The position numbers were made by a program, and so were the translations under genes. This document shows positions 2,464 through 31,056 of a stretch of 31,454 nucleotides of DNA, one piece after another (position 1 is the stretch's first letter; each line of letters begins with the position of its first letter). Under the pieces are notes generated by a model, which saw nothing but the letters and a program-made list of their open reading frames with translations, did no database searches and was not told the DNA's origin. The stretch lies in assembly GCA_003819975.1 (NCBI GenBank), contig RPPU01000003.1, positions 1 through 31,454 of the forward strand, in the 5' to 3' direction. Origin of the DNA: Desulfobacteraceae bacterium (GTDB lineage Bacteria; Desulfobacterota; DSM-4660; Desulfatiglandales; HGW-15).

Positions 2464-3591
2464 ATGAGAATCTTGATCTTATCGGCGTCCGTGGGCGCCG
2501 GGCATTTACGGGCGGCCGAAGCCGTGGAACTGGCGTTAAGGGAATTGGCGCCTGAAGCAATCATCCGGAATATCGACGTATTGCAATGGACCAGCAAGGC
2601 TTTTCGACGCATTTACGGCCGGGCCTATCTGGATCTGGTCAATAAGGCTCCGCATGTGTTGGGGTATTTTTACGATATGCTGGATCAGCCGCCCGGTCCG
2701 CATCGCAAGAGTGACCGCCTGAGGTTGTTGGTCGAACGGTTGAACTTGGGCAAGGTCACCCGTTTTTTGCAGGCTGAAAAATGGGATGTCATCGTGAATA
2801 CTCATTTTTTACCGGCCGAGATTATTGCTTTCTTAAAGCGTACTGAAAGAATCAATGTGCCGCAAATGACCGTGACCACCGATTTTGAAACCCATCGACT
2901 TTGGGTCGCAAATCCTTGCGAACGGTATTGCACGGCCACGGAGGAAGGCGCTGTTTATTTAGAGTATTGGGGAGTCCCGGCTCAAGATATCCGGGTTACG
3001 GGTATTCCCATTCATCCCGTTTTCAGTCAATCTTTTGACCGGGTTGCTTTATTAAATAAATACGGTTTAACCGGAAATAGACCTGTTCTTTTACAACTGG
3101 CCGGCGGGTTCGGCGTCGGTCCAATCGAAAAGATATTTCGCAACTTGCTGATGATCGGAATTCCCTTGGAGATCATTGCGGTGGTCGGCCGCAATGAGGG
3201 GGCCAAGCATGCATTGGAAAGAATCGAAATACCGGAGAGACACAATGCAAGGATTTTCGGTTATACGGATAAAATTCATGAACTCATGGCTCTATCCGAT
3301 TTGGTGGTATCCAAGCCCGGCGGGCTCACCACGTCCGAAGTCCTGGCCAGCGGAGCAGCCATGGCGATCCTGAATCCCGTGCCCGGCCAGGAAAGCCGAA
3401 ATAATGATTTTCTTTTGGAGAATAAAGCCGCCATTAAGATTAACAATATCGCCACTCTGGCTTTTAAAATCACCAAGTTGTTGGAACAAGAAGGCCGATT
3501 GGCGGAATTAAAACAAAATGCCCGCAAACTCGGCAAACCCCGAGCGGCTTTTGAGATCGGTGTCATAGCCAAGGAACTTATTACTCCATAG
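2464..3591 (+). CDS. MGDG synthase / MurG-type glycolipid glycosyltransferase
   Basis: The 375-residue protein has the two-domain GT-B layout of monogalactosyldiacylglycerol synthases and bacterial processive diacylglycerol glucosyltransferases. The N-terminal acceptor domain begins MRILILSASVGAGHLRAAEA, with the family's GAGH-xx-AA motif. The C-terminal Glyco_tran_28 domain carries QLAGGFGVGPIE, VVGRN and the nucleotide-sugar region LSDLVVSKPGGLTTSEVLA. It should transfer a sugar to diacylglycerol at the inner face of the membrane; donor and linkage cannot be read from sequence. A GTG at 2449 gives a five-residue longer frame, but I chose ATG 2464 because AAAGG at 2452-2456 lies seven bases before it. 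It stands alone, with a palindrome upstream and a 224-base gap downstream. Confidence 0.85.
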   Translation: MRILILSASVGAGHLRAAEAVELALRELAPEAIIRNIDVLQWTSKAFRRIYGRAYLDLVNKAPHVLGYFYDMLDQPPGPHRKSDRLRLLVERLNLGKVTRFLQAEKWDVIVNTHFLPAEIIAFLKRTERINVPQMTVTTDFETHRLWVANPCERYCTATEEGAVYLEYWGVPAQDIRVTGIPIHPVFSQSFDRVALLNKYGLTGNRPVLLQLAGGFGVGPIEKIFRNLLMIGIPLEIIAVVGRNEGAKHALERIEIPERHNARIFGYTDKIHELMALSDLVVSKPGGLTTSEVLASGAAMAILNPVPGQESRNNDFLLENKAAIKINNIATLAFKITKLLEQEGRLAELKQNARKLGKPRAAFEIGVIAKELITP

Positions 3592-3815
3592 GCGTTTCCG
3601 GGCTTTTCAGGGTCGAAAAATAATATTGCTTTATTCATGCGGATTTTGTATTCATCTGAATGTGGGACGAGATATGTTTGTTTGACCTCATTGATTTTCA
3701 TTTTCAGCCGCCGGCCGCGGAGCGTTCGGATTTTTGATTCCGGTGGCAAAGGATTTCAACCTTAAGACAGCCGGTCCTGTATCGGCTTGTAGATTCAGGG
3801 AAAAGGGATGAGAAA

Positions 3816-4379
3816 ATGAGTTTTCAAATTTTTATTGCGGATGATGAATCGATCATACGAATGGATCTGCGGGAATTGCTTGAGGAAATCGGCCATCAAG
3901 TTGTCGGCGAAGCCAAAGACGGGCTGGAAGCCGTTCGACTCATTAAAGAGAAAAAGCCCGAACTCGTGATATTGGATATTAAGATGCCGGGAATGGATGG
4001 AATCAGCGTGGCCCGTGAAATCGCAAAAAAATATCCGGTTATTATCTTGACCGCCTATTCCGAGCGCGATTTGATCCAGCATGCTCGCGAAGCAGGCGTC
4101 ATGGCCTATCTTTCCAAGCCTTTTCGTATCGAGAACCTGTCGCCGGCCATTGAATTGGCGGTGAGTCATTTTATCGAAAAATCGGAGTTGAACGATAAGG
4201 TTATGAAACTCAGCGAGGAACTGGAAAACAGAAAGCTGATCGAGAGAGCCAAAGGTTTGTTGATGAAGGTTGAAAAATTAAATGAGACCCAAGCCTATCG
4301 CAGGCTACAAGCCATCAGTATGGAAAAAAATATTCCCATGAAAAAAATCGCGGAAGCGATCATTACGATGCACGGTTGA
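3816..4379 (+). CDS. ANTAR-domain response regulator (AmiR/NasT/EutV type)
   Basis: The 187-residue protein has a receiver domain (residues 1-120): acidic pair Asp9/Asp10, phospho-acceptor Asp54 in LVILDIKMPGMDG, Thr79 and Lys101 in LSKPF. After a short coiled linker comes an ANTAR domain at about 137-183 (LIERAKGLLMKVEKLNETQAYRRLQ). ANTAR proteins bind paired RNA hairpins with AxxGxx hexaloops and stop terminators from forming. The ATG has a purine-rich GGGATGAGAAA leader. The likely partner kinase is the convergent HisKA_2 protein ending at 4828, since that kinase class commonly pairs with ANTAR regulators. A candidate RNA target lies about 390 bases downstream on the same strand (4764-4829). 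The family is secure; the pairing and target are inferred. Confidence 0.93.
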   Translation: MSFQIFIADDESIIRMDLRELLEEIGHQVVGEAKDGLEAVRLIKEKKPELVILDIKMPGMDGISVAREIAKKYPVIILTAYSERDLIQHAREAGVMAYLSKPFRIENLSPAIELAVSHFIEKSELNDKVMKLSEELENRKLIERAKGLLMKVEKLNETQAYRRLQAISMEKNIPMKKIAEAIITMHG

Positions 4380-4448
4380 TTGGATCGGACATATTAACGG
4401 TCTTAAAATAGTATCCCTATAGATTACGGCTTCCGCAGCTCTTTTTCA

Positions 4449-4530
4449 GGCGGCAACGAAGGGCACCCGGGCGGTAACGGCCAGGGCAGGAGCCCTCGCA
4501 TGACAAGCGCTGTTGCCGTCAAGCTTTTTT
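4449..4530 (+). terminator. Branched hairpin followed by a U-run after the ANTAR regulator gene
   Basis: GGCGGCAAC (4449-4457) pairs with GTTGCCGTC (4512-4520), nine pairs including one G-U, and encloses a smaller perfect hairpin AGGGC-AGGA-GCCCT (4483-4496). Six T residues follow at 4525-4530. It lies 70 bases after the regulator's stop codon and could end that transcript. The long enclosed loop is unusual for a simple terminator, and a dispersed structured repeat is equally possible. Confidence 0.4.
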
Positions 4531-4731
4531 GGAATCGGCAAATATCATTCAGGCGCCCGCGAAAATGAATGTTGTGCTTGCCGATCTTACGATAATCTTC
4601 GCCACTTAAGAAAGTTGCCGTCTGAAAAAGAGCCGCGGAAGCCTCATTTCGATAACGACGTGTGTATATATTATTATGAGACGATTAATAAGTCAGAGCA
4701 ATAAGCTTTTTAATACCGCAAGACTTTTTAC

Positions 4732-4759
4732 TTGACAGTTTTTACGACTCTGTTAACAT
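4732..4759 (+). promoter_or_regulatory. Sigma-70-like promoter for the ANTAR-element RNA
   Basis: TTGACA (4732-4737) matches the -35 consensus exactly. TAACAT (4754-4759) follows after 16 bases and matches four of six -10 positions. Transcription would begin near 4765, just before the first AxxGxx hairpin. Spacing and the perfect -35 make it credible; there is no experimental support. Confidence 0.5.
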
Positions 4760-4763
4760 TCGC

Positions 4764-4829
4764 TAAATTCCAATGAAGGATAATAGAGGTAACGAAGCCT
4801 CCCGGCCTAACAGCCGAGGGGCTTTTTTT
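4764..4829 (+). ncRNA. Candidate ANTAR-binding dual-hairpin RNA / attenuator
   Basis: Hairpin 1 is TCC-AATGAA-GGA (4769-4780). Hairpin 2 is GAGGT-AACGAA-GCCTC (4786-4801). They are five bases apart, and both have six-base loops with A at position 1 and G at position 4, the signature of ANTAR protein targets. The 3' arm of hairpin 2 (4797-4801) is also the base of the terminator stem at 4796-4823, so the two folds exclude each other, as in the nas and eut leader RNAs. Hairpin 1 has only three firm base pairs, which is the weak point. No gene follows on this strand before 18406; the transcript converges on the kinase gene. It may therefore be a small RNA that sequesters the regulator (as EutX and Rli55 do) or a switch for antisense RNA. 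The identification is inference from structure plus the adjacent regulator gene. Confidence 0.55.
4796..4829 (+). terminator. Intrinsic terminator between convergent regulator and kinase
   Basis: AGCCTCCCGGC (4796-4806) pairs with GCCGAGGGGCT (4813-4823) through 10 of 11 positions (one U-G pair, one C-A mismatch) around loop CTAACA, followed by seven T residues at 4823-4829. The U-run overlaps the kinase stop codon (TTA at 4828-4830). On the opposite strand the hairpin has no U-run. Confidence 0.8.
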
Positions 4830-7800
4830 AATTAAAAGACAAGGCGGGTTTAAACGGAAATCGAATGGAAAAAACAGTGCCGGGATGATCTTTAACCATA
4901 AGAGTTCCGTGCAATTGTTCTTCAACCAGAATGGAAACGAGTTTTAAACCCAGGGTATTGCCCGGCCTCGTGTTTGGATGGGTTTGAAGCCCGATGCCGT
5001 TGTCTTCCACGATTAATTCGACCTCGTTCGGATTGCAGGTCTGCAGGACAATCCGTATGATACCGGAATCGCGGGCGGCGGCCGGGAAGGCGTATTTCAG
5101 GGCATTGGAGACCAGTTCATTGATGATCAAACCACAGGGAATGGCGAGGTCGATACTTAAGAACACTTTTTCGATCATGATTTCGAGGCGTATCTTTTTC
5201 GGATCCGTTCCATAAGATTGATAAAGGCCGGAAGCGAGATTGCGCGCGTATTTTTCGAGATTGATGCGGGTCAGATCATCGGATTTATAAAGGATTTCAT
5301 GAATGAGCGCCATGGATTGAATGCGATCCCGGCTGTCTTTGAACATTGCCAGGGTTTTATCGTCTTTGGTATAGCGGGACTGCAAATTCAGCAGGCTTGA
5401 TATTATTTGCATGTTGTTTTTGACCCGATGATGTATTTCCTGCAGAAGCAATTCTTTTTCTTTTAACGACGCCTTGATGTGCGTTTCCATGCGGGATTTT
5501 TCCAAAATTTCCCGTTCCAGTTCTTTATTGGCCCGGATTAGTTCATTGGTCCGTTCTTCCACCAATTGGGTCAACTGATCTTTATATTGATCCAATTCTT
5601 TTTGGGTTTTTTTACGCGCTTCCAATTCATAATTAAAATCACGAAGGATCAGGGCATTTTTAAGGGAGATGGCCGCCTGGGACGCCAAGATCCTCAGCGC
5701 TTCCCGCCGTTCCGTGGTAAAAACACCGGGGCTGAGATTGTTTTCCATGTAACAAATCGCGGTAAGTTCATTTTGATAAATCAAGGGCATGCATAAAACG
5801 GATTTGATTTTTCGATCTTCGATATAAGGGTCTTCCGAGAATGGTTCATCGTTGCTGGCATCGTTCAGGACCAGGATCTCCCGCTTGCGGCTGACATAAT
5901 GGATAATGGACTTAGGAATGGAATTCATTTGTTGAATCGATAGGCCTTGTAAAACCATCGTGCTGCCTTCACCGGAAAGCCCTTCAGCTTCGAGAAAAAA
6001 CCGATCGCCGCGTTTCAACATCAATACTACTTTTTCGGCACCGGCATTTTCCATTAGGATGCGGATTAGTTTGCTCAATAGTTTGTCTATCATAATTTCA
6101 TCGGCAATGGCATGGCTGGCTTTTAAAAGAGCATGAAAATCGATTCTATCGCCAATTGGATCCATAGTCTGTATATTTTTTGATTGAACAGCCGTTGTTT
6201 TATTGGTAAAGTTTTTTTGAAACGAATTTATATTTTGAAAGATTTGATGATATTGGGTTTCAAGTTGTTTTGTTTTGGCTTTAGCGCCCCATCGATTATA
6301 AAGATAATGAGCATCCATAAGATAAGCTGAAGCGATTTTTAATAATTTACGAGAAATGTAAAATCTGGCAGCAAGCTCATTGGCCAGAGCTGCGTCATAA
6401 ATATAACCGCTGCCCTCGGCATAATGAATGGCCTGATGATAAGATTTCAATGCTGCAAAGTCCGCTTTCAATATGCGATATTTTTCTGCTTGGACAAGAT
6501 AATATTTATGCATATGATTCATGGGAGCATGCCGCATCCAAAATTTTAATTTTTTTTGATTTTGCTCTATTTGAACGAGAAATTGATGCTTTTGTTTTTT
6601 TGAAAGTTTTTCATAAAATGCTAATTTTATCAACGAATCATAAAAGTAAAAATAAGAATATCCCAACGTTCCGCTTATGGTATTAATATATGCTCTCGTC
6701 CGGTCGGCGATATCTAATAAGCGATCGTAGCGCTCAAATAGAAGGCCCAGATACATTTTTTCCATATAATAATTCGCAATAAAATTTTTATTTCCGGCAT
6801 TAATAAAAAGAGGTAACATGGTTTCTTCATCAAAAGCCGGTCCGGTTAACTCAAAAGGGTCTTGTGTTTCTCCTAGAATATTTAAAACACATTGATATGA
6901 GAGAGATAACAGATGATAAGCCGTTTCTTGTTTTAAAGTTTTGATGATATCGAGATTTCCTTCCATTTTCGCTTTGACCGTTTCAAGGGGGTTTCCCGCT
7001 CCGCGAAAATAAATGGAAGACATCATAAGAGACCAGGCGCCAAATTCAATATCGCCGGCTGTTAAACATTTTTTAAAAAGAGTATTTAATGCCTCTACGC
7101 TAGGCTTGATATGGTTTTTATAATGGTGAATATAGGTAAGAAAAACGAATTCCGCGCGAAGATGATTGATTTCACGATCGTCGTTAGAAGCAAGTTTTTG
7201 AGCCAGCAGGCCAAATCGATGTCCGGTATCGATTTGGCCAAGTCGGCAAAGAATTAACCCATATCCGGCATAGGAATAGGAGGCTTCAGGGCAATTTCCA
7301 TGTTTTACGACCGACTGAATGTTAAAAAAAACGAATAAAGGCAATAGGTTGGGGTCTGCCCAATAAATGGCTGACCCCAATGCGGAAACAATTTGCATTG
7401 CGGCTAATTGTTGAGGATCTGTCATCGGAGCAGATTCCAATATTCTTTCCGGTTTTTTAAACAAGAAAATAAGGTAGGTTTTGAGGAAATAAAATAGTAT
7501 ATGCCATTTTTTCGGTTTGACGGGAAACTTGATTCCCAACAATTCAAGCGCTAATAAACCGGTTCGAATGGCCTCTTCCAATTTATGTTGAGAAATGTGG
7601 GTCCTGACGAGAATTTCATATATCTTTATTTTATCGAGCATTGTACTGGTATTTCGAGTGACAATAGTAAATAACCTGTTAACAAAATCGAAATACCCGC
7701 ATACATAAGCGGCCTCCGCTAATTCGATATGTAAGGCAAGGGAAAGATCATAATGGGATGACCAGCTTTCCCGGGGCAATAACTGGAGCCCTATTTTCAA

Positions 7801-10119
7801 TTGATCGAATGACAATTGATAGGCGGAAGAATTTCTTGCCTTGTGTCCAGCTCGTAAATATAAGCAGGCTAATTCAAGACGTTCGGTAGAATCGGTAAGC
7901 CAACGCAGGCCTTGGCCATAATGGTAGATAATATCGAATAGGTTTTCTTCGAGATTTACTTCTCTTGCTTTTTTTCTTAAAAGCTGCCCGATTTTCAAAT
8001 GTTTTTTTTCGCGATCCTGTTCGGCAATAAGTATATAAGCCGCTTGCTGAATATGATCATGCGGAAATTTAAAATGAAGGTTTGTCGGATGATCGGAAGA
8101 AGATAACCGATTATCATGAAGAAACGATTCAAAAAATACGATAAATTGATTTTCCACGGCATGATCTAAATGACTAAGCAACTGCATCTCATTTATTTGA
8201 GTAGCCTGGGATAACGTATGCAAATCGAAAATATTTCCTATAGAAGCGGCTGTTTGAAGAACATCGCGGGTATCGGATGAAAGATCATTCAATCGCGATA
8301 CGATTATATCCGCGGTATCTTCGCTGAACGAAGTTTCATGTGCAGAAGACCAATCCAAAGACCATGATTGAGCGGAATGATTAAACTGTAAAATATGGCG
8401 ATGATAAAGTGATTGCAAAAATTGCATGGCGAAAAGAGGATTTCCTTGCGATTTTTTCATGATTAGTTTTGATAGATGGGCCAATTGAAAAGAAGTTTCA
8501 TGCAAGGTTTCTTTTAATAATTCATCCATCGATTCGATTAAAAGCGGCTGCAGTGCAATAAATTGCATGTGATGCGGGGTTTCGTTTTTTATGGCTCCCA
8601 ATGTGGCGAGACAATGCGAATTGGCGTTAAATTCTTGGTCGCGATAAGCACCGATAAACATGAGAAATTTTATTTCCGGATCGGTCAATATGGTTTTAAT
8701 GAGTTCTAAAGAGGCGAAATCAGCCCATTGACAATCGTCAATGAACATTACAAGCGGATGGCTGGAAGAAGCCAGTGCTCGTATAAAATTCGAGAAAGTA
8801 AGATGAAATCGGTTGCGGGATTCCAGATGGCCTAATTTCGGCACGTCAGGTTGTTTTCCAACGATTAATTCCAATTCAGGTAAAAGATCCGTGATAATGC
8901 ATCCGTTGTGACCCAAGGCATTCTGAATGCTTTTTTTCCATTCACTGAATGCACCTGAATGTTCAATAAGTATTTTATTTATCATTTTTTGGAGCGCTTG
9001 CCGGATGGCATGATAGGGCACGTTATTTTTGTATTGGTCAAATTTCCCCGAAATAAAATGACCTTGATTTTGGATAGCAAATTTGGAAAATTGTTCAATC
9101 AAAAAAGATTTTCCGATGCCCGGAGATCCGGAAACCATGATAATCTCTAGATTCTCTTGAAAGATTTTCTGAAAGGCGTTACAGATCGTTTTAAAGTCTT
9201 CTTTTCTGCCGTAAAGTTTTTGAGAAATTTCAAAACACTCATAAATTTCCGATTGGGCCAATGAAAAATCCTGAACGGTTCCCGTTGCGGAATACATTCG
9301 AAACGATTTTTCGAGATCCCTCAGCAAACCTGTTGCGCTTTGATAACGCTCCTTAGGCAGTTTAGCGATTAATTTCATAACCAAATTCGCGAGTGTAGGC
9401 GGGATATCGCGATTTAGTTTATCGGGTGCAAGCGGTATGTAGGCCAAATGGGCATAAATTATTTCCATGGGGTCTTGAGAATTAAAAAGATGTTTTCCCG
9501 TTAACATCCTGTAAAACGTGGCACCCAGGGAATACAAATCCGACCGCGAATCAGGACGGTTTTTGATTCTACCGGTTTGCTCGGGAGCGATATAAAAAAA
9601 ATTTATTTCCATGTCTTCAACGAATCGTGTTATTGTCTGGGCCTGATTGTTTTTGAAGGAAGAATGAAAATTAATAAGCTGAACGATTTTTTTTTCGGGA
9701 TTTATCAGAATATTAAAAGGAGTGACATTTCCATGAACGAAACCATCATGATGAAGTTCTTTGACAATTTGGACAAGATTAATGGATATTTTGAAAAAAT
9801 TATCCATACTGATAACGCTTTTTTCGAGATATTCCGAAAGTAAAATGCCTTCAAAATCTCTAAAACCAAGAACGGTCGAAGATCCGATTCTATCTAAAAA
9901 TAGAGGTTTCCATATGCCGGGAGTATTCAATTTTTTTAATAAAGCATATTCATATTCCAATTGATTAAGATCATTTAAGGTTGGGTCGTCAAGAGTGGGG
10001 AGTTTTAAAATACATTGAAATTGATCAAGCTTCCTAAGGGCTCGCACGATTGTTATTTTTTCATTTTGCTGCAATAATTGGATAAAATGAAAACCTTCCA
10101 GATATCGACGTTCTTTCAT
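4828..10119 (-). CDS. Giant sensor: pseudokinase-like domain, AAA ATPase, GAF and HisKA_2 histidine kinase
   Basis: The 1763-residue cytoplasmic protein has the layout of large Ser/Thr-kinase/ATPase/histidine-kinase hybrids. Residues 1-270 form a protein-kinase fold (Lys39, APE at 178-180, SDLYSLGATFYRML). The catalytic loop reads HGNVTPFN (129-136) and the DFG position reads NFH (150-152), so both catalytic aspartates are asparagine. An AAA_16-type ATPase follows: Walker A GSPGIGKS (331-338) and Walker B LVMFIDDCQW (456-465). Then comes a long helical, TPR-like region to about 1290, GAF at about 1328-1490, a coiled coil to about 1555, HisKA_2 with EIHHRVKNN (His1563/1564), and HATPase with INELVSNALKY and VEDNGIGL. 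No transmembrane segment is obvious, so it probably senses an internal cue and phosphorylates the ANTAR regulator next door. It starts at ATG 10119 with a weak ribosome-binding site. Confidence 0.93.
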   Translation of the reverse strand: MKERRYLEGFHFIQLLQQNEKITIVRALRKLDQFQCILKLPTLDDPTLNDLNQLEYEYALLKKLNTPGIWKPLFLDRIGSSTVLGFRDFEGILLSEYLEKSVISMDNFFKISINLVQIVKELHHDGFVHGNVTPFNILINPEKKIVQLINFHSSFKNNQAQTITRFVEDMEINFFYIAPEQTGRIKNRPDSRSDLYSLGATFYRMLTGKHLFNSQDPMEIIYAHLAYIPLAPDKLNRDIPPTLANLVMKLIAKLPKERYQSATGLLRDLEKSFRMYSATGTVQDFSLAQSEIYECFEISQKLYGRKEDFKTICNAFQKIFQENLEIIMVSGSPGIGKSFLIEQFSKFAIQNQGHFISGKFDQYKNNVPYHAIRQALQKMINKILIEHSGAFSEWKKSIQNALGHNGCIITDLLPELELIVGKQPDVPKLGHLESRNRFHLTFSNFIRALASSSHPLVMFIDDCQWADFASLELIKTILTDPEIKFLMFIGAYRDQEFNANSHCLATLGAIKNETPHHMQFIALQPLLIESMDELLKETLHETSFQLAHLSKLIMKKSQGNPLFAMQFLQSLYHRHILQFNHSAQSWSLDWSSAHETSFSEDTADIIVSRLNDLSSDTRDVLQTAASIGNIFDLHTLSQATQINEMQLLSHLDHAVENQFIVFFESFLHDNRLSSSDHPTNLHFKFPHDHIQQAAYILIAEQDREKKHLKIGQLLRKKAREVNLEENLFDIIYHYGQGLRWLTDSTERLELACLYLRAGHKARNSSAYQLSFDQLKIGLQLLPRESWSSHYDLSLALHIELAEAAYVCGYFDFVNRLFTIVTRNTSTMLDKIKIYEILVRTHISQHKLEEAIRTGLLALELLGIKFPVKPKKWHILFYFLKTYLIFLFKKPERILESAPMTDPQQLAAMQIVSALGSAIYWADPNLLPLFVFFNIQSVVKHGNCPEASYSYAGYGLILCRLGQIDTGHRFGLLAQKLASNDDREINHLRAEFVFLTYIHHYKNHIKPSVEALNTLFKKCLTAGDIEFGAWSLMMSSIYFRGAGNPLETVKAKMEGNLDIIKTLKQETAYHLLSLSYQCVLNILGETQDPFELTGPAFDEETMLPLFINAGNKNFIANYYMEKMYLGLLFERYDRLLDIADRTRAYINTISGTLGYSYFYFYDSLIKLAFYEKLSKKQKHQFLVQIEQNQKKLKFWMRHAPMNHMHKYYLVQAEKYRILKADFAALKSYHQAIHYAEGSGYIYDAALANELAARFYISRKLLKIASAYLMDAHYLYNRWGAKAKTKQLETQYHQIFQNINSFQKNFTNKTTAVQSKNIQTMDPIGDRIDFHALLKASHAIADEIMIDKLLSKLIRILMENAGAEKVVLMLKRGDRFFLEAEGLSGEGSTMVLQGLSIQQMNSIPKSIIHYVSRKREILVLNDASNDEPFSEDPYIEDRKIKSVLCMPLIYQNELTAICYMENNLSPGVFTTERREALRILASQAAISLKNALILRDFNYELEARKKTQKELDQYKDQLTQLVEERTNELIRANKELEREILEKSRMETHIKASLKEKELLLQEIHHRVKNNMQIISSLLNLQSRYTKDDKTLAMFKDSRDRIQSMALIHEILYKSDDLTRINLEKYARNLASGLYQSYGTDPKKIRLEIMIEKVFLSIDLAIPCGLIINELVSNALKYAFPAAARDSGIIRIVLQTCNPNEVELIVEDNGIGLQTHPNTRPGNTLGLKLVSILVEEQLHGTLMVKDHPGTVFSIRFPFKPALSFN

Positions 10120-11672: not shown

Positions 11673-13547
11673 TCAGATCTCCAGAAATTTGGAAAGTTTG
11701 CTTTCGGTTTCCGGCCGGTCGGATATTCGGATATATTGAATAGTATTAGCCGTAAGAAAAATCAAGCCGTTTTCCATCAAGGCGGAAGCGACGATCGGGT
11801 TCGCGGACCGGCAACGCCAGGACAAGTTTTGATTTGGATCGTGACCGAACAGACCGTCACGCGTGCCGACGATTTCCTGCACAACGGCATTTTGAACAAA
11901 AAACAGAGAAGCAGCCGATTTTCTTTTCACATGAACAATCGTGTCAAGTTCGAGATTCAAATACCGCAACCAACCGTTTTCATCCATACAAAGCAGCGGT
12001 TGCGCGCACACGATCGGAACCTCGGGATTGAATGCGTTCAAGCGGCAAAAACGGCCTTTCAATGTTTCGAGATCGAATGAAAAAAGCGAGCGATCCGTCA
12101 GGGCGCCGACGAGACGGCGTTCCGTATAAAACAATTGGCGGATATCGGACTTGAACGTATGACTGAAGAGCAATCGGCCTTCCGGAGAGAGGGCCTTTAA
12201 AATGTTTTTATGAAAAAGAGCGACGCCGTCTTTTTCACAGGAGAGAGGCGTTGACGGCGTTTGCGGCGACGGAAGGTCGGCCCGGATCGATCCTTTAAAA
12301 TCGTAAATCAGCAACCGCGCGTTTTGCGACAGCATCCAGACTTTTTGCAGGCCGAAATTGATTGCGACGCCGTGAACGCCATAGGGATCGAAAGCAAAAT
12401 AAACTGAACGGTTTTCCGTAACATCGATCAACCGGGCTTGCTTCCTTCCGGTTATGAAAACCCAGGTTAGGTCATCGTCTAACGCGAGATTTTGAATCGG
12501 ATCGGGAAAAGTCGTTCGGTAACGGAGTGAACCTTGTTCATCGAAAAAATCGATGCCGCCTTTTTGATTGACGATGCCGGCATGCCGTCCCGATCGATTG
12601 ATGGTTATGTTTTTTAACACGATGTCGGAAGGGAGCGACCAGGACGGCAGGCGCTCCCGAACCCGCGGACCGGGAACGGTTTCCAGGAAATCGGCCGTGG
12701 GTTTTGCATCTGTGTGCACCGCAAAACAGGTGAGGATGCCGTCTTCATCGATGATTGCAAAATAATCGCCGCGCGACGCCATTTTGATTTGCTGGATCCG
12801 ATGAGATAAGTGCTCATTCCAGAGACAAACCTCGTATTCATCGAACAATCTCAGGTTGTTTTCAATGTCGAAAACCAGCAATAAAGCGCCGTCGGCCGGG
12901 ACGGCCATCAAAGTACACAGCGGAATGCCGCTCAGTTCGACGAAGGCCTGGGTCTCGAGGTTGAACTTAATCAGGTTGCGGTTGTAATCCAAAAAATAAC
13001 CGTTGCGGCCGTCATGGCTTACCAGGAGTTCGCCCGCAATAAAGAGTTTTTCCGCAAACCAGAGCGTTTTCCCGTTCAGATCGGCAATGGCCAGATCGTG
13101 TTTTTCATTGTAGATCAGGATTTGCTCGGTTTTCGGCACCGTTCTTAATTGCCGAATATATTCAGCGACCGTAAAAGCATTCCATTTGCGGCCGTGCGGT
13201 TTCATCATCAAAACCTGTTTTTGCATCCCGTACAAAACAGCGCAATCTTTATAACACTCGAGACGGCTGAAACGATCGTCGATAAGGCATTCCGTGTGCC
13301 TTTTGGAGGGGATATGGAAAGTGATCAAAAATCCTTCACATAAAATATAAGCCAGAGAACCGTCCGCCGTGATGCGGAAAGCCAGCGGTTTATGACCAAA
13401 GGAGAAAAGGTCGGCTCGTTCTCCGGAGAGGGCCACCGATTCGAGTTGACCGTTTTCATAAAGCAGAAAAATGGAATGATCCAGCGGATGAAACTCGGCT
13501 TGTACATATTCTTTATGCAAAGGGATTTGATAGATCGAAAAGGGCAT
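11673..13547 (-). CDS. Beta-propeller-like cytoplasmic protein of unknown function
   Basis: The 624-residue protein has no signal peptide or membrane segment. It is built of recurring short strand patterns of the type found in WD40/PQQ-like propellers, for example DHSIFLLYENGQLESVA, LNGKTLWFAEK, QKGGIDFFDEQGSLRY and FKGSIRADL. I do not recognise a named family. A GTG at 13565 would add six residues and overlap the upstream gene by 14 bases; I chose ATG 13547, four bases after that gene's stop, which fits translational coupling. It sits between a lipid kinase and a Ycf46-like AAA ATPase, all on the minus strand. A scaffold or adaptor for the ATPase is plausible but is inference. Confidence 0.75.
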   Translation of the reverse strand: MPFSIYQIPLHKEYVQAEFHPLDHSIFLLYENGQLESVALSGERADLFSFGHKPLAFRITADGSLAYILCEGFLITFHIPSKRHTECLIDDRFSRLECYKDCAVLYGMQKQVLMMKPHGRKWNAFTVAEYIRQLRTVPKTEQILIYNEKHDLAIADLNGKTLWFAEKLFIAGELLVSHDGRNGYFLDYNRNLIKFNLETQAFVELSGIPLCTLMAVPADGALLLVFDIENNLRLFDEYEVCLWNEHLSHRIQQIKMASRGDYFAIIDEDGILTCFAVHTDAKPTADFLETVPGPRVRERLPSWSLPSDIVLKNITINRSGRHAGIVNQKGGIDFFDEQGSLRYRTTFPDPIQNLALDDDLTWVFITGRKQARLIDVTENRSVYFAFDPYGVHGVAINFGLQKVWMLSQNARLLIYDFKGSIRADLPSPQTPSTPLSCEKDGVALFHKNILKALSPEGRLLFSHTFKSDIRQLFYTERRLVGALTDRSLFSFDLETLKGRFCRLNAFNPEVPIVCAQPLLCMDENGWLRYLNLELDTIVHVKRKSAASLFFVQNAVVQEIVGTRDGLFGHDPNQNLSWRCRSANPIVASALMENGLIFLTANTIQYIRISDRPETESKLSKFLEI

Positions 13548-23296: not shown

Positions 23297-23986
23297 ATGC
23301 CCTTGATTGAAATGAAAAACATAAAAAAAGATTATTTTCTGGGAGAGACGGTGGTGCATGCGTTGCGCGGGATTGACCTGGAGATCGATTCCGGGGAGTT
23401 TATCGGTATTTGGGGACCGTCCGGTTCCGGGAAAACCACGCTGCTGAATCTGATCGGCGCCATTGATGAACCCACGGAAGGATCCCTGATCATGAACGGC
23501 CGGGAAGTGTCCCGGCTTTCGGACAATGCCTGCAGTGAGCTGCGCAACAAAACCGTGGGTTTTATTTTCCAGGGTTTTAATTTAGTGCCGGTCTTGTCTG
23601 CTTTGGAAAACGTGATGTTGCCGTTGCAAATCAAGGGAACACCCATGGCAGAGGCCAGAACCAAGGCTTTGGGGCGTTTGCAAGAGGTCGGTTTAACAGG
23701 GTTGGATGCCCATCGGCCGTCTAAAATGTCGGGAGGTCAACAGCAACGCGTGGCCATTGCCCGGGCTCTCGTGACCACCCCGTCGCTCGTGATTGCGGAT
23801 GAACCGACCGCCAATCTGGATTCTGAAAACGCACATCTCATTATCGACTTGATGCGCGCGTTGAATGAAAAGGATCAGACCACTTTTATTTTTTCAACCC
23901 ATGACCAACGCCTCCTGGATCGGGTTAAGCGTCTGGTGCGCCTGGAAGACGGCCGGATCGGGAACGGAGGCGCCGCGTCATGTTGA
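23297..23986 (+). CDS. LolD/MacB-type ABC transporter ATPase (module 1)
   Basis: This 229-residue ATPase powers the FtsX-type permease that follows. Walker A is GPSGSGKT (40-47), the Q-loop Gln is 92, signature MSGGQQQ (144-150), Walker B LVIADEP (164-170) and the switch His lies in STHD. AGGAGA precedes the ATG. The permease start overlaps its end by seven bases (ATGTTGA), so the two are translationally coupled. Sequence and partners suit lipoprotein or envelope-lipid export (LolCDE/MacB class); the cargo cannot be stated. A close paralogue is at 28238. Confidence 0.93.
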   Translation: MPLIEMKNIKKDYFLGETVVHALRGIDLEIDSGEFIGIWGPSGSGKTTLLNLIGAIDEPTEGSLIMNGREVSRLSDNACSELRNKTVGFIFQGFNLVPVLSALENVMLPLQIKGTPMAEARTKALGRLQEVGLTGLDAHRPSKMSGGQQQRVAIARALVTTPSLVIADEPTANLDSENAHLIIDLMRALNEKDQTTFIFSTHDQRLLDRVKRLVRLEDGRIGNGGAASC

Positions 23987-25218
23987 ACTGGGTAAAATTG
24001 GCTTTCCGAAATATCTTGAGAAATAAACGCCGTTCTTTTGTCACCTTGCTCGCCATCGGCGTCGGTTTCGCGGCCATCAGTCTTTTTCGCGGTTACACGG
24101 ACGCCACCTATAACGCCCTTAGGCAAACGGCCGTGCGCGGCGAAGGTCTGGCCCATTTGACGGTTGCCAAACAGGGTTGGTTTGAAAAAGGGAAATTGGA
24201 TCCGCAGCAATATATGTTTTTGGAAGAGGATGTTCAGCGGATCATCAAACTCATTAAAGAAGAGCCGGATGTTTTGGTGGCCACCCCGCAAATCATGATT
24301 GCCGGCCTGGTCTCCAACGGCACGGTTTCGACTATTTTTGTGGCTCAGGGCGTGATCCCGAAAGAAGACAAGATTATTAAAGGGATCTTTAGTTCTTACG
24401 GCCCGATCAAAGGAGCGGCTCTGGACGATCAAAAAATGTACGGCGTAGAGATGAGCCGGGGACTGGCCGAATTTTTAGGCCTGGAAGCGGGCAAAGACGG
24501 TGTGGCCATGGCTGCGACCTTGAACGGACAAATGAATGCCATGGATATTCAGGTGATCGGTGTTTATGAAACCGGCACGGACATGACCAATGACAAATTC
24601 ATGCGGGTCAACTATGGTTTTGCCCAAGCTCTTTATGACGCTAAAATGGCGGAAAAAGTCGTGGTCCTTTTGGACGATTGGCGCAAGACCGATTCAATGC
24701 GAATAAGGCTTTTGGATAAATTAACCCGGGCGGGATTCAACTGTGATATAAAAACCTGGAACGAATTATCCATATTTTATTCCAAAGTCAAAGCCATGTT
24801 CGACAGCATTTTCTTTTTTCTGTTTACGATTGTCATGATCATCGTGGTGATGAGCACGGTCAACACCATGGGTATGGCGGTTCTGGAAAGAACCCGGGAG
24901 ATCGGGACCTTGCGGGCTTTGGGCTTGAAGCGCAGGGGCGTGAATTTGCTTTTTGCCTTGGAAGGCGGGCTTTTAGGCCTTTGCGGCAGCCTTTTCGGCA
25001 TGTTTTTACATGTCGCGACCTGGGCCGTGATTCGGATTTTTCAACCAACCTATACACCGCCCGGCACATCCATCTCCGTACCAATGGTTGTACACCTGGT
25101 ACCCCAGGTCATGGTGGTCTTAATGGCCTGTCTGATCGTGCTTTCCTTAATGGCGGCGGTTATTCCGGCCAGGCGCGCGGCCGGGCAAAAGGTGGTGGAT
25201 GCCTTATGGCACGTTTAG
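23980..25218 (+). CDS. FtsX/LolC-type ABC permease (module 1)
   Basis: The 412-residue inner-membrane permease begins LAFRNILRNKRRSFVTLLAIGVGF (cytoplasmic basic patch plus first membrane helix). A MacB-type periplasmic domain follows (about 45-265), then three more helices containing the FtsX core VVMSTVNTMGMAVLERTREIGTLRALGLKRR and the end VIPARRAAGQKVVDAL. Four helices in total fit the LolC/MacB family. It works with the ATPase at 23297 and probably passes substrate to the LolA-like protein at 25416. Confidence 0.92.
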   Translation: MLNWVKLAFRNILRNKRRSFVTLLAIGVGFAAISLFRGYTDATYNALRQTAVRGEGLAHLTVAKQGWFEKGKLDPQQYMFLEEDVQRIIKLIKEEPDVLVATPQIMIAGLVSNGTVSTIFVAQGVIPKEDKIIKGIFSSYGPIKGAALDDQKMYGVEMSRGLAEFLGLEAGKDGVAMAATLNGQMNAMDIQVIGVYETGTDMTNDKFMRVNYGFAQALYDAKMAEKVVVLLDDWRKTDSMRIRLLDKLTRAGFNCDIKTWNELSIFYSKVKAMFDSIFFFLFTIVMIIVVMSTVNTMGMAVLERTREIGTLRALGLKRRGVNLLFALEGGLLGLCGSLFGMFLHVATWAVIRIFQPTYTPPGTSISVPMVVHLVPQVMVVLMACLIVLSLMAAVIPARRAAGQKVVDALWHV

Positions 25219-25298
25219 GTTTTTTTAAGCTTGAAAAATATAGGATCAAAAAACCTCAATGGGATGAGTAGGAATAAAGTATTTGTTCAGTCAACCGG

Positions 25299-25308
25299 AA
25301 GTCAGAAT
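25299..25308. repeat. AGTCAGAAT dispersed repeat, single unit
   Basis: One copy of the nine-base word found also at 14471-14500 and 26229-26256. It lies between the module 1 permease and LolA-like genes. Confidence 0.35.
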
Positions 25309-25341
25309 GCGGAAACCGGCGGCAATATGGGATTGCGCCTA

Positions 25342-25395
25342 TAGGGGTGGGTCACAATTTTTTCCTGAAATTGTTTGCTTTGAAACCCGCCCCTA
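25342..25395. repeat. Long imperfect GTAGGGGC-class inverted repeat
   Basis: TAGGGGTGGGT (25342-25352) and ACCCGCCCCTA (25385-25395) pair with one mismatch, and CACAATTT / AAATTGT-type inner arms extend the fold. It lies directly before the module 1 LolA-like gene, the same place where module 2 carries a similar element (30240-30269). Confidence 0.6.
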
Positions 25396-25415
25396 CTCAA
25401 AATTGGAGAGAAAGA

Positions 25416-26204
25416 ATGATTAGTCGCTTCAAAATCAAAATGGGCGTTCTATTTATCTTTATGATATTTGTTATAGCCGGTTTGCCTGCTCCGGTTGTCA
25501 TGGCTTTGACTACGCAAGAGATTTTGAAAAAAGCAGATGAAGCCAGAGGCGGTAATTTTGACGGGTTGGAATGGGAGATGGTCATTGATACGGTTGAAAA
25601 AGGCCGACCCCGGCAAAGGACCCTGCAGGTGACCTTGCGCGGTTATGATGCGGTGGTTGAATTCCTGACCCCGGCCGAAACCAAGGGCATGAAACTGCTC
25701 GTCGTCGACCGGAATATGTGGTTTTCAAAACCCGGTCTTTCCATGCCCGTGGCCATTTCGGCCAGGCAAAAATTGGCCGGCGGCGCAGCCGGCGGGGATA
25801 TTGCGGCGACCAATTATGTGGCGGATTATAGGGTGATCCATGAAGCGGAAGAGGTTCTAAGCGGCGAACCCTGTTATCTCTACGATCTAAGTGCGATTGA
25901 AAAAAAAGTCACTTATGAGCGCATCAAATACTGGATTTCCAAAGAACGACTGGTGGGCCTTAAAGCGGAGTTTTATACCGTATCGGGCAAGCTGTTCAAG
26001 ACCGCCTTATTCGAATATGATAACCGTGTGTTCGTTCAGGGCCAAAACCGGCCTTTTATATCCAAAATGACCATAACCGGCGCTCTGCTGAAAGACGATG
26101 TGACCATTATGACGTACCGCAAGCCGGTGTTGAAGAAAGTGCCGGATGAGATGTTTCATCTGAATCTGCCGGTGAAAAAGCCGGAAGAGAAAGATAATAG
26201 ATAA
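25416..26204 (+). CDS. LolA-like periplasmic outer-membrane lipoprotein-sorting protein (module 1)
   Basis: The 262-residue protein belongs to the LolA-like COG2834 group. It has a signal peptide with likely cleavage at VMA|LTTQ and family motifs FLTPAETKGMKLLVVDRNMWF and ARQKLAGGAAGGDIAATNYVADY. Family members have a half-barrel that shields a lipid while carrying it through the periplasm. A GTG at 25347 would add 23 residues but lies inside a palindromic repeat; I chose ATG 25416, which has GGAGAG seven bases upstream, exactly as in copy 2. It follows its ATPase and permease and presumably receives their substrate. Confidence 0.88.
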   Translation: MISRFKIKMGVLFIFMIFVIAGLPAPVVMALTTQEILKKADEARGGNFDGLEWEMVIDTVEKGRPRQRTLQVTLRGYDAVVEFLTPAETKGMKLLVVDRNMWFSKPGLSMPVAISARQKLAGGAAGGDIAATNYVADYRVIHEAEEVLSGEPCYLYDLSAIEKKVTYERIKYWISKERLVGLKAEFYTVSGKLFKTALFEYDNRVFVQGQNRPFISKMTITGALLKDDVTIMTYRKPVLKKVPDEMFHLNLPVKKPEEKDNR

Positions 26205-26359: not shown

Positions 26360-26449
26360 GCATGATTCTATAAATAAATATCGAACATGGAATATCGAAT
26401 AACGAAGGAGTGAAAAGCGCAAACATTTAGAGTGCGGCGACGCGTCACA

Positions 26450-26465
26450 CGAGGGCTCCTGCCCT
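26450..26465. repeat. 16-base hairpin repeat shared with 4483-4498
   Basis: CGAGGGCTCCTGCCCT occurs here on the plus strand and at 4483-4498 on the minus strand. Its core AGGGC-TCCT-GCCCT is a perfect five-pair hairpin. Two identical copies 22 kb apart in non-coding DNA suggest a small dispersed element. Confidence 0.4.
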
Positions 26466-28237: not shown

Positions 28238-28927
28238 GTGTCATTAATTGAAATGAAAAATATAAAAAAGGACTATTTTTTAGGAGAAACCGTGGTGCGG
28301 GCATTAAGGGGAATCGATTTGCAGGTTGAAGCAGGCGAGTTTATCGCCATCTGGGGGCCATCCGGTTCCGGAAAAACCACGCTCCTGAATCTGATCGGAG
28401 CGATCGATGAACCTACGGAGGGTGAATTAAGCATGAGGGGCCGGGAGGTTTGTTCTTTGTCTGATAATCAATGCAGCGAATTGCGCAATCAGACCGTTGG
28501 TTTTATTTTTCAGGGTTTTAATTTAGTACCGGTGCTTTCAGCTCTTGAGAATGTGATGTTGCCGCTGCAGATCCGGGGCCTGTCCGCGGCGGAAGCCAAG
28601 GCTAAAGCACTGGTTCGTTTACAGGAGGTGGGCTTGGCCGATCTGGTCCAAAATCGGCCGTCCAAAATGTCGGGCGGCCAGCAACAACGCGTAGCCATTG
28701 CCCGAGCTCTGGTGACCGGCCCTGCGCTGGTCATTGCCGACGAGCCGACCGCCAACCTGGATTCGGAAACCGCGCGCATGATCATTGATCTGATGCGGGC
28801 GTTGAATGAAAAAGACCAGACCACTTTTATTTTTTCAACCCATGACCAGCGCCTTTTGGATCGGGTCAAACGGCTGGTGCGTTTGGAAGACGGTCGGATC
28901 GTAAACGGAGGATCCAAACCATGTTGA
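28238..28927 (+). CDS. LolD/MacB-type ABC transporter ATPase (module 2)
   Basis: This 229-residue paralogue of the ATPase at 23297 has the same length and near-identical motifs (GPSGSGKT, MSGGQQQ, LVIADEPTANLDSE, FSTHD). It starts at GTG 28238, preceded by AAAAGGAGG at a suitable distance. As in module 1 it overlaps the permease start by seven bases. The last 100 bases are especially close to copy 1: 23878-23907 and 28818-28847 look identical. This suggests either strong constraint or gene conversion. Confidence 0.93.
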   Translation: MSLIEMKNIKKDYFLGETVVRALRGIDLQVEAGEFIAIWGPSGSGKTTLLNLIGAIDEPTEGELSMRGREVCSLSDNQCSELRNQTVGFIFQGFNLVPVLSALENVMLPLQIRGLSAAEAKAKALVRLQEVGLADLVQNRPSKMSGGQQQRVAIARALVTGPALVIADEPTANLDSETARMIIDLMRALNEKDQTTFIFSTHDQRLLDRVKRLVRLEDGRIVNGGSKPC

Positions 28928-30159
28928 AATGGATGAAATTAGCGGTTCGTAATGTTCTCAGAAACAAACGCCGATCACTGGTTACCTTATCGGCCGTTGG
29001 GTTCGGTTTTGCAGCGATCAGTCTGTTTCGAGGTTACACGGATAATATGTATTATGGCGTTCGAGAGTCGTCCATCCGCGGTGAGGGTCTCGGACATCTG
29101 ACGATTTACAAGGCCGGATGGTTAGTAAAAGGCAAACTCGATCCACAGCGCTATATGTTTTCAAATGCGGAGATCAAGCAGATCATAAAAACAATCGAAG
29201 AAGAAAAGGCGGTGATCGTGGCCACTCCGCAGATCCATATCGCCGGACTGGTTTCCAATGGGAAGATTTCCACTATTTTCATGGCGCAAGGAGTTATTCC
29301 CAAAGATGATAAAATCATCAAAGGACGATGGGGTACATTCAGACCCGTTCAGGGCGAACTTTTAAGCGAAAAAAAAGACTATGGAGTGGAAGTGGCCCAG
29401 GATCTGGCCAAATATCTGAGTCTGGAACCCGGGAAAGAAGGCGTCGTTATGGCCACGACCCTTGCGGGACAAATGAACGCCATGGACATGTACGTGTCGG
29501 GTATTTACGATTCCGGTTCCGATGCGACCAATGACAAATTCATGCGGGTTAATTACACTTATGCGCAAGCCCTGTATGATACGGATAAAGCCGAAAAAAT
29601 CGTGGTTTTATTGGATGATTGGCAAAAAACCGAGCCGATGCGCTTACGCCTTTCAACCAAACTAGCCAAAGCCGGTTTTGCGGTTGAGATCAAAACCTGG
29701 AGGGAATTATCCGTTTTTTATCTAAAAGTTAGAGGAATGTTTGACATGATTTTCCTCTTTTTGTTTTCTATTGTTTTGATCATCGTCGTCATGAGTACGA
29801 TCAATACCATGAGTATGGCTGTTTTGGAAAGAACAAAGGAGATCGGAACCCTGAGGGCTTTGGGTTTAAAACGCAGAGGCGTCTCATTGCTTTTTGCCAT
29901 GGAGGGCGGTTTGTTGGGGCTTCTCGGGAGCCTGATGGGGATAATATTGCATTGCGCAGCCTGGTCCCTGATTCGTGTGCTTGCGCCGACCTATACTCCG
30001 CCCGGGATCTCCACGCCCGTGCCTTTGGTTGTACATCTGGTGCCCCAGTCTTTGCTGGTATTGATGATCTGTTTGATGTTCCTTTCTTTAATAGCGGCAA
30101 TCATACCGGCCAGGCGAGCAGCCGGGCAGAATGTCGTGGATGCCCTTGGGCATGTCTAG
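28921..30159 (+). CDS. FtsX/LolC-type ABC permease (module 2)
   Basis: The 412-residue paralogue of the permease at 23980 has exactly the same length and fold: LAVRNVLRNKRRSLVTL start, periplasmic domain, VVMSTINTMSMAVLERTKEIGTLRALGLKRR core and IIPARRAAGQNVVDAL end. The membrane parts are nearly the same, while the periplasmic domain differs more, for example around residues 145-165 (WGTFRPVQGELLSEKKD against FSSYGPIKGAALDDQKM). That fits two pumps with different partners or cargo. Confidence 0.92.
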   Translation: MLKWMKLAVRNVLRNKRRSLVTLSAVGFGFAAISLFRGYTDNMYYGVRESSIRGEGLGHLTIYKAGWLVKGKLDPQRYMFSNAEIKQIIKTIEEEKAVIVATPQIHIAGLVSNGKISTIFMAQGVIPKDDKIIKGRWGTFRPVQGELLSEKKDYGVEVAQDLAKYLSLEPGKEGVVMATTLAGQMNAMDMYVSGIYDSGSDATNDKFMRVNYTYAQALYDTDKAEKIVVLLDDWQKTEPMRLRLSTKLAKAGFAVEIKTWRELSVFYLKVRGMFDMIFLFLFSIVLIIVVMSTINTMSMAVLERTKEIGTLRALGLKRRGVSLLFAMEGGLLGLLGSLMGIILHCAAWSLIRVLAPTYTPPGISTPVPLVVHLVPQSLLVLMICLMFLSLIAAIIPARRAAGQNVVDALGHV

Positions 30160-30239
30160 ATTTTTTCGATTCCGTAAAAACAGGGAATCGGAAAAACCGC
30201 ATAAGATAATTGTTGCCGAGAAACGTTTCATATAATGCC

Positions 30240-30269
30240 GTAGGGGCAGGTTTTAAATCTGCCCCTTAC
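30240..30269. repeat. GTAGGGGCAG palindromic element
   Basis: GTAGGGGCAG (30240-30249) and CTGCCCCTTAC (30259-30269) pair with one extra T around an AT-rich centre. It lies directly before the module 2 LolA-like gene, matching the element before the module 1 copy. Confidence 0.65.
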
Positions 30270-30300
30270 CAAAAAAAACAAATCTGTTTGGAGAGAAAAA

Positions 30301-31056
30301 ATGTTTTCAAGATATAAATATCGTTTATTCGTTTTAGTGCTCGGCTTTATTCTGCTTTGTTTTCATGCTCCGGCTTCAGCCGACCTGACACCCCGGGACA
30401 TTCTCAAAAAGGCGGACCAAGCCCGGGGGAACTTGGGAGGGGTGGAGTGGGAAATCGAAATCCAATCGATTGAAGAAGGCCGGCAACAAGATAGGGTTCT
30501 TAAGGTGACGGCTCGTGATTTTAATTCCTTGGCCGAATTCCTGGAGCCGGCCAAGGTCAAGGGGCAAAAAATTCTGATGATCGACCGCAATATGTGGTTC
30601 ATGAAACCGGGTCTCTCCAAGGCCGTGCCGATTTCGCCCAGGCAAAAATTAATGGGCGGAGCAGCCAACGGCGACATCGCTTCCACCAATTATGCCGGCG
30701 ATTATGAGGTCAGCCGATTCTCCGAGGAGCAAGCTGACGGTGCGGCTTGTTATCTTTTCGATCTGAAGGCGATCGACAAGAAGGTGACCTATGATCGCAT
30801 CAAATACTGGGTTTCAAAAGAGCATCTGCTTGGAGTGAAAGCCGAATTCTATACGGTTTCCGGCAAGCTGTTCAAGACCGCTGAATTCAGATATGAGAAC
30901 AGCATTACGGTTGACGGCCAAATCCATGCTTTTATCTCGCAGATGATCATCATGGATGCGGTTATCAAAGAAGATATTACGACTATGATCTATCGCAGAG
31001 CGGTCGTGAAGAAGGTGTCGGATTCCGTTTTCAATTTAAATCTGTTGTTGCGATAA
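30301..31056 (+). CDS. LolA-like periplasmic outer-membrane lipoprotein-sorting protein (module 2)
   Basis: The 251-residue paralogue of the protein at 25416 has a signal peptide cleaved near ASA|DLTP and motifs FLEPAKVKGQKILMIDRNMWF and SPRQKLMGGAANGDIASTNYAGDY. The ATG has the same GGAGAGAAA leader as copy 1, which confirms both starts. It follows the module 2 permease after 141 bases that hold a palindromic element. Unlike copy 1, it is followed closely on the same strand by a further secreted-protein gene, which may be its outer-membrane acceptor. Confidence 0.88.
   Translation: MFSRYKYRLFVLVLGFILLCFHAPASADLTPRDILKKADQARGNLGGVEWEIEIQSIEEGRQQDRVLKVTARDFNSLAEFLEPAKVKGQKILMIDRNMWFMKPGLSKAVPISPRQKLMGGAANGDIASTNYAGDYEVSRFSEEQADGAACYLFDLKAIDKKVTYDRIKYWVSKEHLLGVKAEFYTVSGKLFKTAEFRYENSITVDGQIHAFISQMIIMDAVIKEDITTMIYRRAVVKKVSDSVFNLNLLLR

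Follow-up and report, generated by a model that had tools for sequence, protein, structure and literature searches.

A probably orphaned ANTAR attenuator beside a REC-ANTAR response regulator gene in a Desulfobacteraceae bacterium

The closest described systems are the dual-hairpin antiterminators EutV, NasR and AmiR (Ramesh et al. 2012, PMC3369931). The phosphorylated ANTAR regulator binds the hexaloops of two RNA hairpins, P1 and P2, and P2 excludes the terminator (PMC3369931; PMC8934654). In the eut leaders, the linker between the two hairpins measures 5-12 nt, and linkers of 3 nt and 14 nt both impair the system (PMC3369931). ANTAR elements are also known at the nitrogenase genes of Pelobacter carbinolicus (PMC3369931). 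In actinobacteria, where ANTAR targets outside nitrogen metabolism are known, 37% of the ANTAR RNAs overlap a ribosome binding site or a start codon, 24% lie inside an ORF and few overlap a terminator (PMC8164766). The ANTAR site of EutX lies on a riboswitch RNA and has no terminator associated with it (PMC5821096).

The window, i.e. the whole stretch of 31,454 nucleotides that was analysed, carries an element of this type between the gene of a REC-ANTAR regulator and the convergent gene of a large kinase. The features of the locus are the following:

3816-4379, forward strand: REC-ANTAR response regulator of 187 aa (PF00072, 1.5e-29; PF03861, 4.5e-19)
4428-4643, no strand assigned: inverted-repeat element with 30-nt arms, 93% complementary, between the regulator gene and the promoter-like site of the attenuator
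4732-4759, forward strand: sigma-70-type promoter-like site TTGACA-16-TAACAT with the TG of an extended -10, from a promoter-site search
4769-4829, forward strand: whole ANTAR element (P1, P2 and terminator), behind the promoter-like site
4769-4780, forward strand: hairpin P1, TCC(AATGAA)GGA, three pairs, A1/G4 loop
4786-4801, forward strand: hairpin P2, GAGGU(AACGAA)GCCUC, five pairs including the closing U.G, A1/G4 loop, conserved in relatives
4794-4829, forward strand: intrinsic terminator whose 5' arm contains the 3' arm of P2, U-run at 4823-4829
4828-10119, reverse strand: convergent kinase of 1763 aa (Pkinase, AAA_16, GAF, HisKA_2 and HATPase domains), whose stop codon overlaps the U-run

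The TTGACA box, the two AxxGxx hexaloop hairpins (AATGAA and AACGAA) and the terminator that the initial annotation had described are all present. In the promoter-like site, TTGACA (4732-4737) and TAACAT (4754-4759) are separated by a 16-nt spacer, a TG stands upstream of the latter and 10 of 12 positions match, so that transcription would be expected to start near 4766. Alone, the site is weak evidence since three such sites were observed in the region for 2.8 expected; an equally good site within 120 nt before P2 occurred in 0.5% of 200 shuffles. P1, with its three pairs and a stability of -2.1 kcal/mol, is as weak as had been stated. A P1 of such quality before P2 arose in 1.0% of 20,000 shuffles, or in 0.06% if the loop had to be AAYGR, a criterion picked afterwards. 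P1 is followed by a linker of 5 nt (4781-4785) and then by P2, whose 3' arm had been proposed to be shared with the terminator. It is taken up entirely by the terminator 5' arm (4794-4801 and 4803-4806), and the T-run (4823-4829) does overlap the stop codon of the kinase gene (4828-4830). The minimum free energy fold of 4766-4829 consists of P1 and the terminator at -21.2 kcal/mol, for -8.5 kcal/mol in the alternative with P1 and P2.

A scan of both strands of the 31,454 bases for two A..G.. hexaloop hairpins with an overlapping terminator returned exactly this one site, and none in 30 dinucleotide shuffles. A second match to the P2 core at 12729 lies opposite a coding ORF, and no terminator was seen there by eye. 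No Rfam family, riboswitches included, reached its gathering score in the 31 kb, and a relaxed cut-off over 3500-5600 gave weak matches only (E 6.7-8.4). The fold z-score of the element is only -2.34. Given this modest value and promoter-like sites at chance frequency, the case rests on the motif. As in the leaders controlled by EutV, NasR and AmiR, two A1/G4 hexaloop hairpins of at least 3 bp are joined by a short linker, here of 5 nt, P2 overlaps the terminator and an ANTAR gene is found in the locus; unlike those leaders, the element has no gene downstream. It differs from the actinobacterial ANTAR RNAs by its clear terminator. The inverted-repeat element upstream (216 bp) is a candidate MITE-like element or insulating hairpin, linked to the switch by position alone: the sequence 4420-4652 folds with a z-score of -6.67 and a 22-nt piece recurs at 26444-26465.

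The regulator could be aligned over its full length with Rv1626 (1s8n), its best PDB match, and with the response regulator 6wsh. A REC-ANTAR regulator is also found in the PdtaS-PdtaR system. The partner kinases there are of the HisKA_2 type. The structure 6wsh was taken to be EutV on the ground that the residue numbers of PMC8934654 fit it with an offset of 2. Twelve EutV residues named in that article for RNA contact or dimerization were checked (PMC8934654). The regulator is identical at seven of them (R142, K143, E146, K149, E160, Y164 and M172, so that the equivalents of Tyr164 and Met172 are kept), K147 is replaced by R and the remaining four (R168, N173, R175 and R177) are changed. The receiver domain has D54 and K101. 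An ANTAR regulator with RNA-contact residues is thus encoded beside the element. Regulators 79-93% identical to it are known as proteins, among them P0001 (93%, encoded on a metagenome contig of 2308 bp) and P0002 (79%, longest contig 4055 bp).

The regulator from 3816-4379 would read the attenuator at 4732-4829. By default, the RNA would fold into P1 and the terminator and transcription would stop near 4829, giving an RNA of about 64 nt. A dimer of the phosphorylated regulator bound to the hexaloops would hold P2 and let transcription continue. Read-through past 4829 would yield RNA antisense to the 3' end of the kinase gene, which is mechanically possible according to this model.

An initial scan of genome contigs for regulators returned mostly distant ones. 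Orthologous regulators, 61-67% identical, were finally collected from nine genomes (designated here by G numbers, and their loci by L numbers), all of which carry ANTAR elements. Four came from 395 genomes sampled from the phylum (G341, G242, G116 and G366). G432 makes, with three of these, four of the 46 genomes of the order of G341; G491 and G499 make, with G366, three of the 85 genomes of its class; G738 and G584 are two of 389 genomes of another class. The nine relatives presumably all belong to Desulfobacterota. Near these regulators, a terminator with covarying pairs comes after a core resembling GGAGGUAAYGAAGCCUC. Among 18 aligned elements, the window's included, the P2 loop has A1 in 17 and G4 in 18, and the top three pairs of P2 (U.G, G-C, G-C) hold in all 18, the closing U.G among them. 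In the terminator helix, 96.6% of cells are paired and 7 of 12 pairs have changed on both sides. None of 500 shuffles reached any of the five measures, a control that may be too lenient for related sequences. As the alignment had been fitted to the model and the long gap of the window placed arbitrarily, weight was put on P2 and not on the terminator columns of the window. The compensatory changes that the initial annotation had asked for are thus found in the terminator of the relatives. Its dual-hairpin attenuator is borne out in its anatomy and in its mutually exclusive P2 and terminator, both of which are conserved.

A covariance model (R1) built from seven elements of relatives, the window being excluded, found the window element with 31.2 bits (E 9e-6 in about 140 kb). 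The covariance search that had been proposed therefore detected the element, with the reservation that bare terminators score alike: when model R2 was run over 395 genomes, eight other terminators reached 30.0-33.6 bits (in nine rows, two of which form a pair on opposite strands), and none of them has a P2 core at the match. The score alone is no proof of membership, which rests on the P2 sequence and on the place beside the regulator. Matches of at least 50 bits occurred in 4 of the 395 genomes, the same four that carry the regulator at E < 1e-70; their presence there is by construction, these genomes having supplied seeds, and their absence from the other 391, which is not by construction, refers to a search with stricter filters that scored only 15 candidates for each genome. 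G738 and G584, which were used for no model, have one and four elements, respectively, with 57-69 bits, and all five keep the 12 terminator pairs. A strict P2-plus-terminator pattern was too strict, being found in two of seven relatives (G366 and G491, L148 holding one of the G491 matches), and a similar pattern had no match in viral contigs.

Outside the close regulator clade, R1 returned two matches in 56 loci (L001-L026, L082, L115-L137 and six loci of relatives), namely L131 (22.2 bits) and L128 (15 bits). At L131, a 42%-identical regulator is followed about 1.2 kb further on by a P2-like GGC(AACGAG)GCC with an overlapping terminator (3248-3290). In the first 138 loci, the dual-hairpin scan had a single match, L125, beside a 47%-identical regulator, where a P1 GGATAC(AAAGGC)GTATCC with an overlapping terminator is located at about 2990. 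L125 and L131 are candidates for further ANTAR attenuators near more distant regulators.

The conservation of the A1/G4 loops, which had been named as a test, holds for P2 and is seen for P1 at a minority of elements. A canonical P1 (hexaloop with A1/G4, stem of 4 bp or more, no further than 75 nt away) was found at 6 of the 25 elements of the relatives; the window's own P1, with 3 bp, would not pass this test. The clearest examples are in G491, with GAGUCU(AAUGAC)GGACUC and AGAGAUGU(AAUGGC)GCAUCUUU, and in G584. In the latter, P1 (L243 6450-6550 and L244 5190-5290) is a near copy of P2 about 27-33 nt upstream, a linker much longer than the 5-12 nt of the eut leaders. The P1 of L185, also counted here, may be due to chance; its loop reads AUAGCU and resembles none of the rest. 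Some of the 19 elements that lack a canonical P1 have hairpins with other loops, and the clade may tolerate other recruiting hairpins. The P1 of the window is plausible, with a good loop match and little conservation support. The family thus differs from the EutV, NasR and AmiR leaders in its constant closing U.G of P2 and in a canonical P1 that is often not found.

A difference between the window and its relatives lies downstream. Each of the 25 elements of the relatives is followed within 400 nt by the start of an ORF of 80 aa or more on the same strand, and that of the window is not. Of 1014 places drawn at random in these loci, ORF cores excluded, 56% had such an ORF, which puts the gene placement of the relatives far above chance, with the reserve that elements of one genome are not independent. 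Conversely, since 44% of random intergenic places are gene-less, a single element that lacks a gene is weak evidence that an event took place. At 5 of the 25, the start of the longest ORF falls inside the element, by up to 66 nt, and the true start is probably later. The count of 25 includes three elements at 24-27 bits (G499, L187 and L147:4273) that were kept for their P2 core. It leaves out matches on the opposite strand of counted elements, the weak rows G491:C13, G366:C58, G366:C86, G499:C93, G499:C920, G116:C9 and G432:C189, and six weak matches (L188-L193) with no P2 core (L188, L191 and L192) or with one only away from the match (L189, L190 and L193). Four of these loci (L188, L189, L191 and L193, from G116 and G242) share a second recurrent leader hairpin, GGYGUCUUU..CCGAUGAYGGAU..AAAGAC with a U-run; it has no ANTAR P2 core at the match and, in three of the four, precedes a gene starting with a signal-peptide-like sequence. 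Tandem ANTAR attenuators before one gene were observed in three genomes (L142 14364/14499, L143 14220/14350 and L144 9320/9574).

According to Pfam, the genes after the elements of the relatives include those of aldehyde dehydrogenase, short-chain dehydrogenase, acyl-CoA dehydrogenase, Peripla_BP_6, molybdenum hydroxylase, URO-D and Fe-S proteins, and one small protein with a sub-threshold HapK match. The gene after one G584 element presumably resembles AOR. The ORF closest to the G738 element, a frame of 99 aa, is doubtful, and a homologue of the aldehyde dehydrogenase lies behind it. Unlike the EutV, NasR and AmiR leaders, these elements thus precede aldehyde/acyl-CoA and uptake genes and not nitrogen genes. 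The position of the window element after its regulator gene had been called unusual; it is ordinary, as three of the nine relatives (G432, G499 and G738) have an element after the regulator on the same strand, followed by a gene. The absence of a gene behind the window element was confirmed: once ORFs nested opposite longer ones were dropped, the next same-strand ORF of at least 60 aa starts at 18406. Raw same-strand ORFs of 60-88 aa start from 4994; those listed as far as 9964 are opposite the kinase gene. The 31-kb window was searched for eight representative target genes of the relatives, and none was found. Further along, at 23297-26204 and 28238-31056, ORFs of 229 aa and 412 aa and a LolA_like protein follow in the same order twice, apparently a duplicated transporter cassette, for which the LolA_like proteins alone were compared.

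At 11 of 19 elements of the relatives, and at the window's, the best promoter-like site has a perfect TTGACA as its -35. With this shared box and the missing genes, the window resembles a complete leader unit without its operon. The reading that we favour, with a probability of about 0.6, is that of an intact ANTAR attenuator orphaned by the loss of its operon. Sequence comparison shows the element, its family, its co-occurrence with the regulator and the absent downstream gene; we infer its transcription and binding, the loss of an ancestral operon and any present function. The short RNA or, on antitermination, the antisense RNA would be the remaining products. The intact state of the promoter-like site, P1, P2 and terminator speaks against orphaning, as a dead relic would not need them, and implies that the operon was lost recently or that the element is still used. 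The relatives compared have regulators 61-67% identical, and none is a close relative with an intact operon.

A continued use could be that of an antisense switch, in which the active regulator would antiterminate and the read-through RNA would lower kinase expression in a feedback. The promoter-like site and the ANTAR terminator do point into the 3' end of the kinase gene, with the U-run on the stop codon, and the site is still intact without a target gene. The convergent kinase had been claimed as the likely kinase of the regulator and probably is not its partner. In the first seven relatives, a FIST_C-GAF-HisKA_2-HATPase kinase is encoded directly upstream of the regulator on the same strand, FIST_N being present in the six with a complete gene. 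By homology, G738 also has a FIST kinase adjacent upstream. That of G584 is encoded on a different contig, at distances of about 2.4 kb and 7.5 kb from two of the elements; the stretches read on its sides showed no ANTAR gene. The FIST kinase is therefore present in all nine relatives and adjoins the regulator in eight. A tblastn search of the window with the first 400 residues of a FIST kinase gave no match; only its HK domain matched, at 30%, the convergent kinase, whose HK domain is 28-32% identical to those of the relatives' FIST kinases. A FIST-domain sensor kinase side by side with a REC-ANTAR regulator, and at least one attenuator in the vicinity, was observed at L141-L147 and L235.

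A general pairing of such kinases with ANTAR regulators was rejected on short flanks. None of 30 loci with similar kinases showed an ANTAR gene in the flanks covered, which were at most 1.5 kb long and lay mainly on the side after the kinase; these were the most similar kinase regions, with partial matches, taken from 69 genomes with a match, and the ANTAR profile recovered 56 of 56 control loci. The convergent kinase may phosphorylate the regulator, their adjacency being the sole argument. Against the antisense switch also stands the fact that none of the 25 elements of the relatives is arranged in this way. In addition, untranslated antisense RNA is prone to Rho termination. We consider the antisense switch unlikely. 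A wider version is rather unlikely, in which the attenuator would have been re-used as a gene-less control point, giving a small RNA by default and regulator-dependent antisense RNA when activated, with the orphan ANTAR regulator re-wired onto a large multidomain sensor kinase.

The other proposal of the initial annotation was a titration resembling that by EutX and Rli55, in which the RNA of about 64 nt would draw the phosphorylated regulator from other targets. The element would resemble EutX and Rli55 as a non-coding ANTAR site with an own promoter, for which it has a promoter-like site. It has a regulator-binding motif and no downstream gene and, as EutV binds single hexaloops (PMC8934654), P1 alone might bind. 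Nevertheless, the EutX site is free of a terminator and coupled to a riboswitch (PMC5821096), and neither is true here: no riboswitch was found in the window at gathering score and the ANTAR site lies inside a terminator. The terminated RNA would hide P2, in view of the large stability difference between the two folds, and leave the weak P1. The buried P2 and the distinct type of the EutX site both disfavour the titration, which was not supported and is quite unlikely.

The missing gene might finally be artificial, if the regulator and the element came from one place and the kinase from another by a chimaeric assembly. In a protein search, the sole near-identical match of the kinase was the window's own contig, the next match by E-value being 42% identical over 63% of the searched region, and the G+C content of the kinase gene is 39% for 45-47% around. 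On the other side, tetranucleotide use shows no jump at 4829 (z -0.2), the kinase C-terminus is complete in comparison with the homologues compared, and the only repeat found to touch the junction in 3590-4840 is an inverted pair of 17 nt (82%). A truncation of the kinase by the element was also rejected, as most homologues among the matches listed end within about 10 residues of the same position and some within about 20. An assembly chimaera is very unlikely and was ranked last, after the orphaned attenuator, the antisense switch and the titrating RNA, in this order.

Beyond the window, the relatives have a coherent ANTAR regulon. It combines a sensor kinase of the FIST-domain type and a REC-ANTAR regulator with P2-terminator leaders that recur before aldehyde dehydrogenase, acyl-CoA dehydrogenase, SDR, molybdenum hydroxylase and uptake genes. 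A literature search for ANTAR with the FIST domain, with subscription papers and supplementary tables outside its scope, found no paper, and none appeared for related terms among the papers listed. This FIST-kinase/ANTAR regulon appears to be undescribed and not tied to nitrogen. The type of sensor and the set of targets appear new; ANTAR elements in the phylum and non-nitrogen targets were already known. Overall, in a family where P2 is nearly fixed and P1 is variable, the window offers a natural leader without a gene, on which it can be tested if attenuators, once orphaned, turn into small RNAs or into antisense switches.
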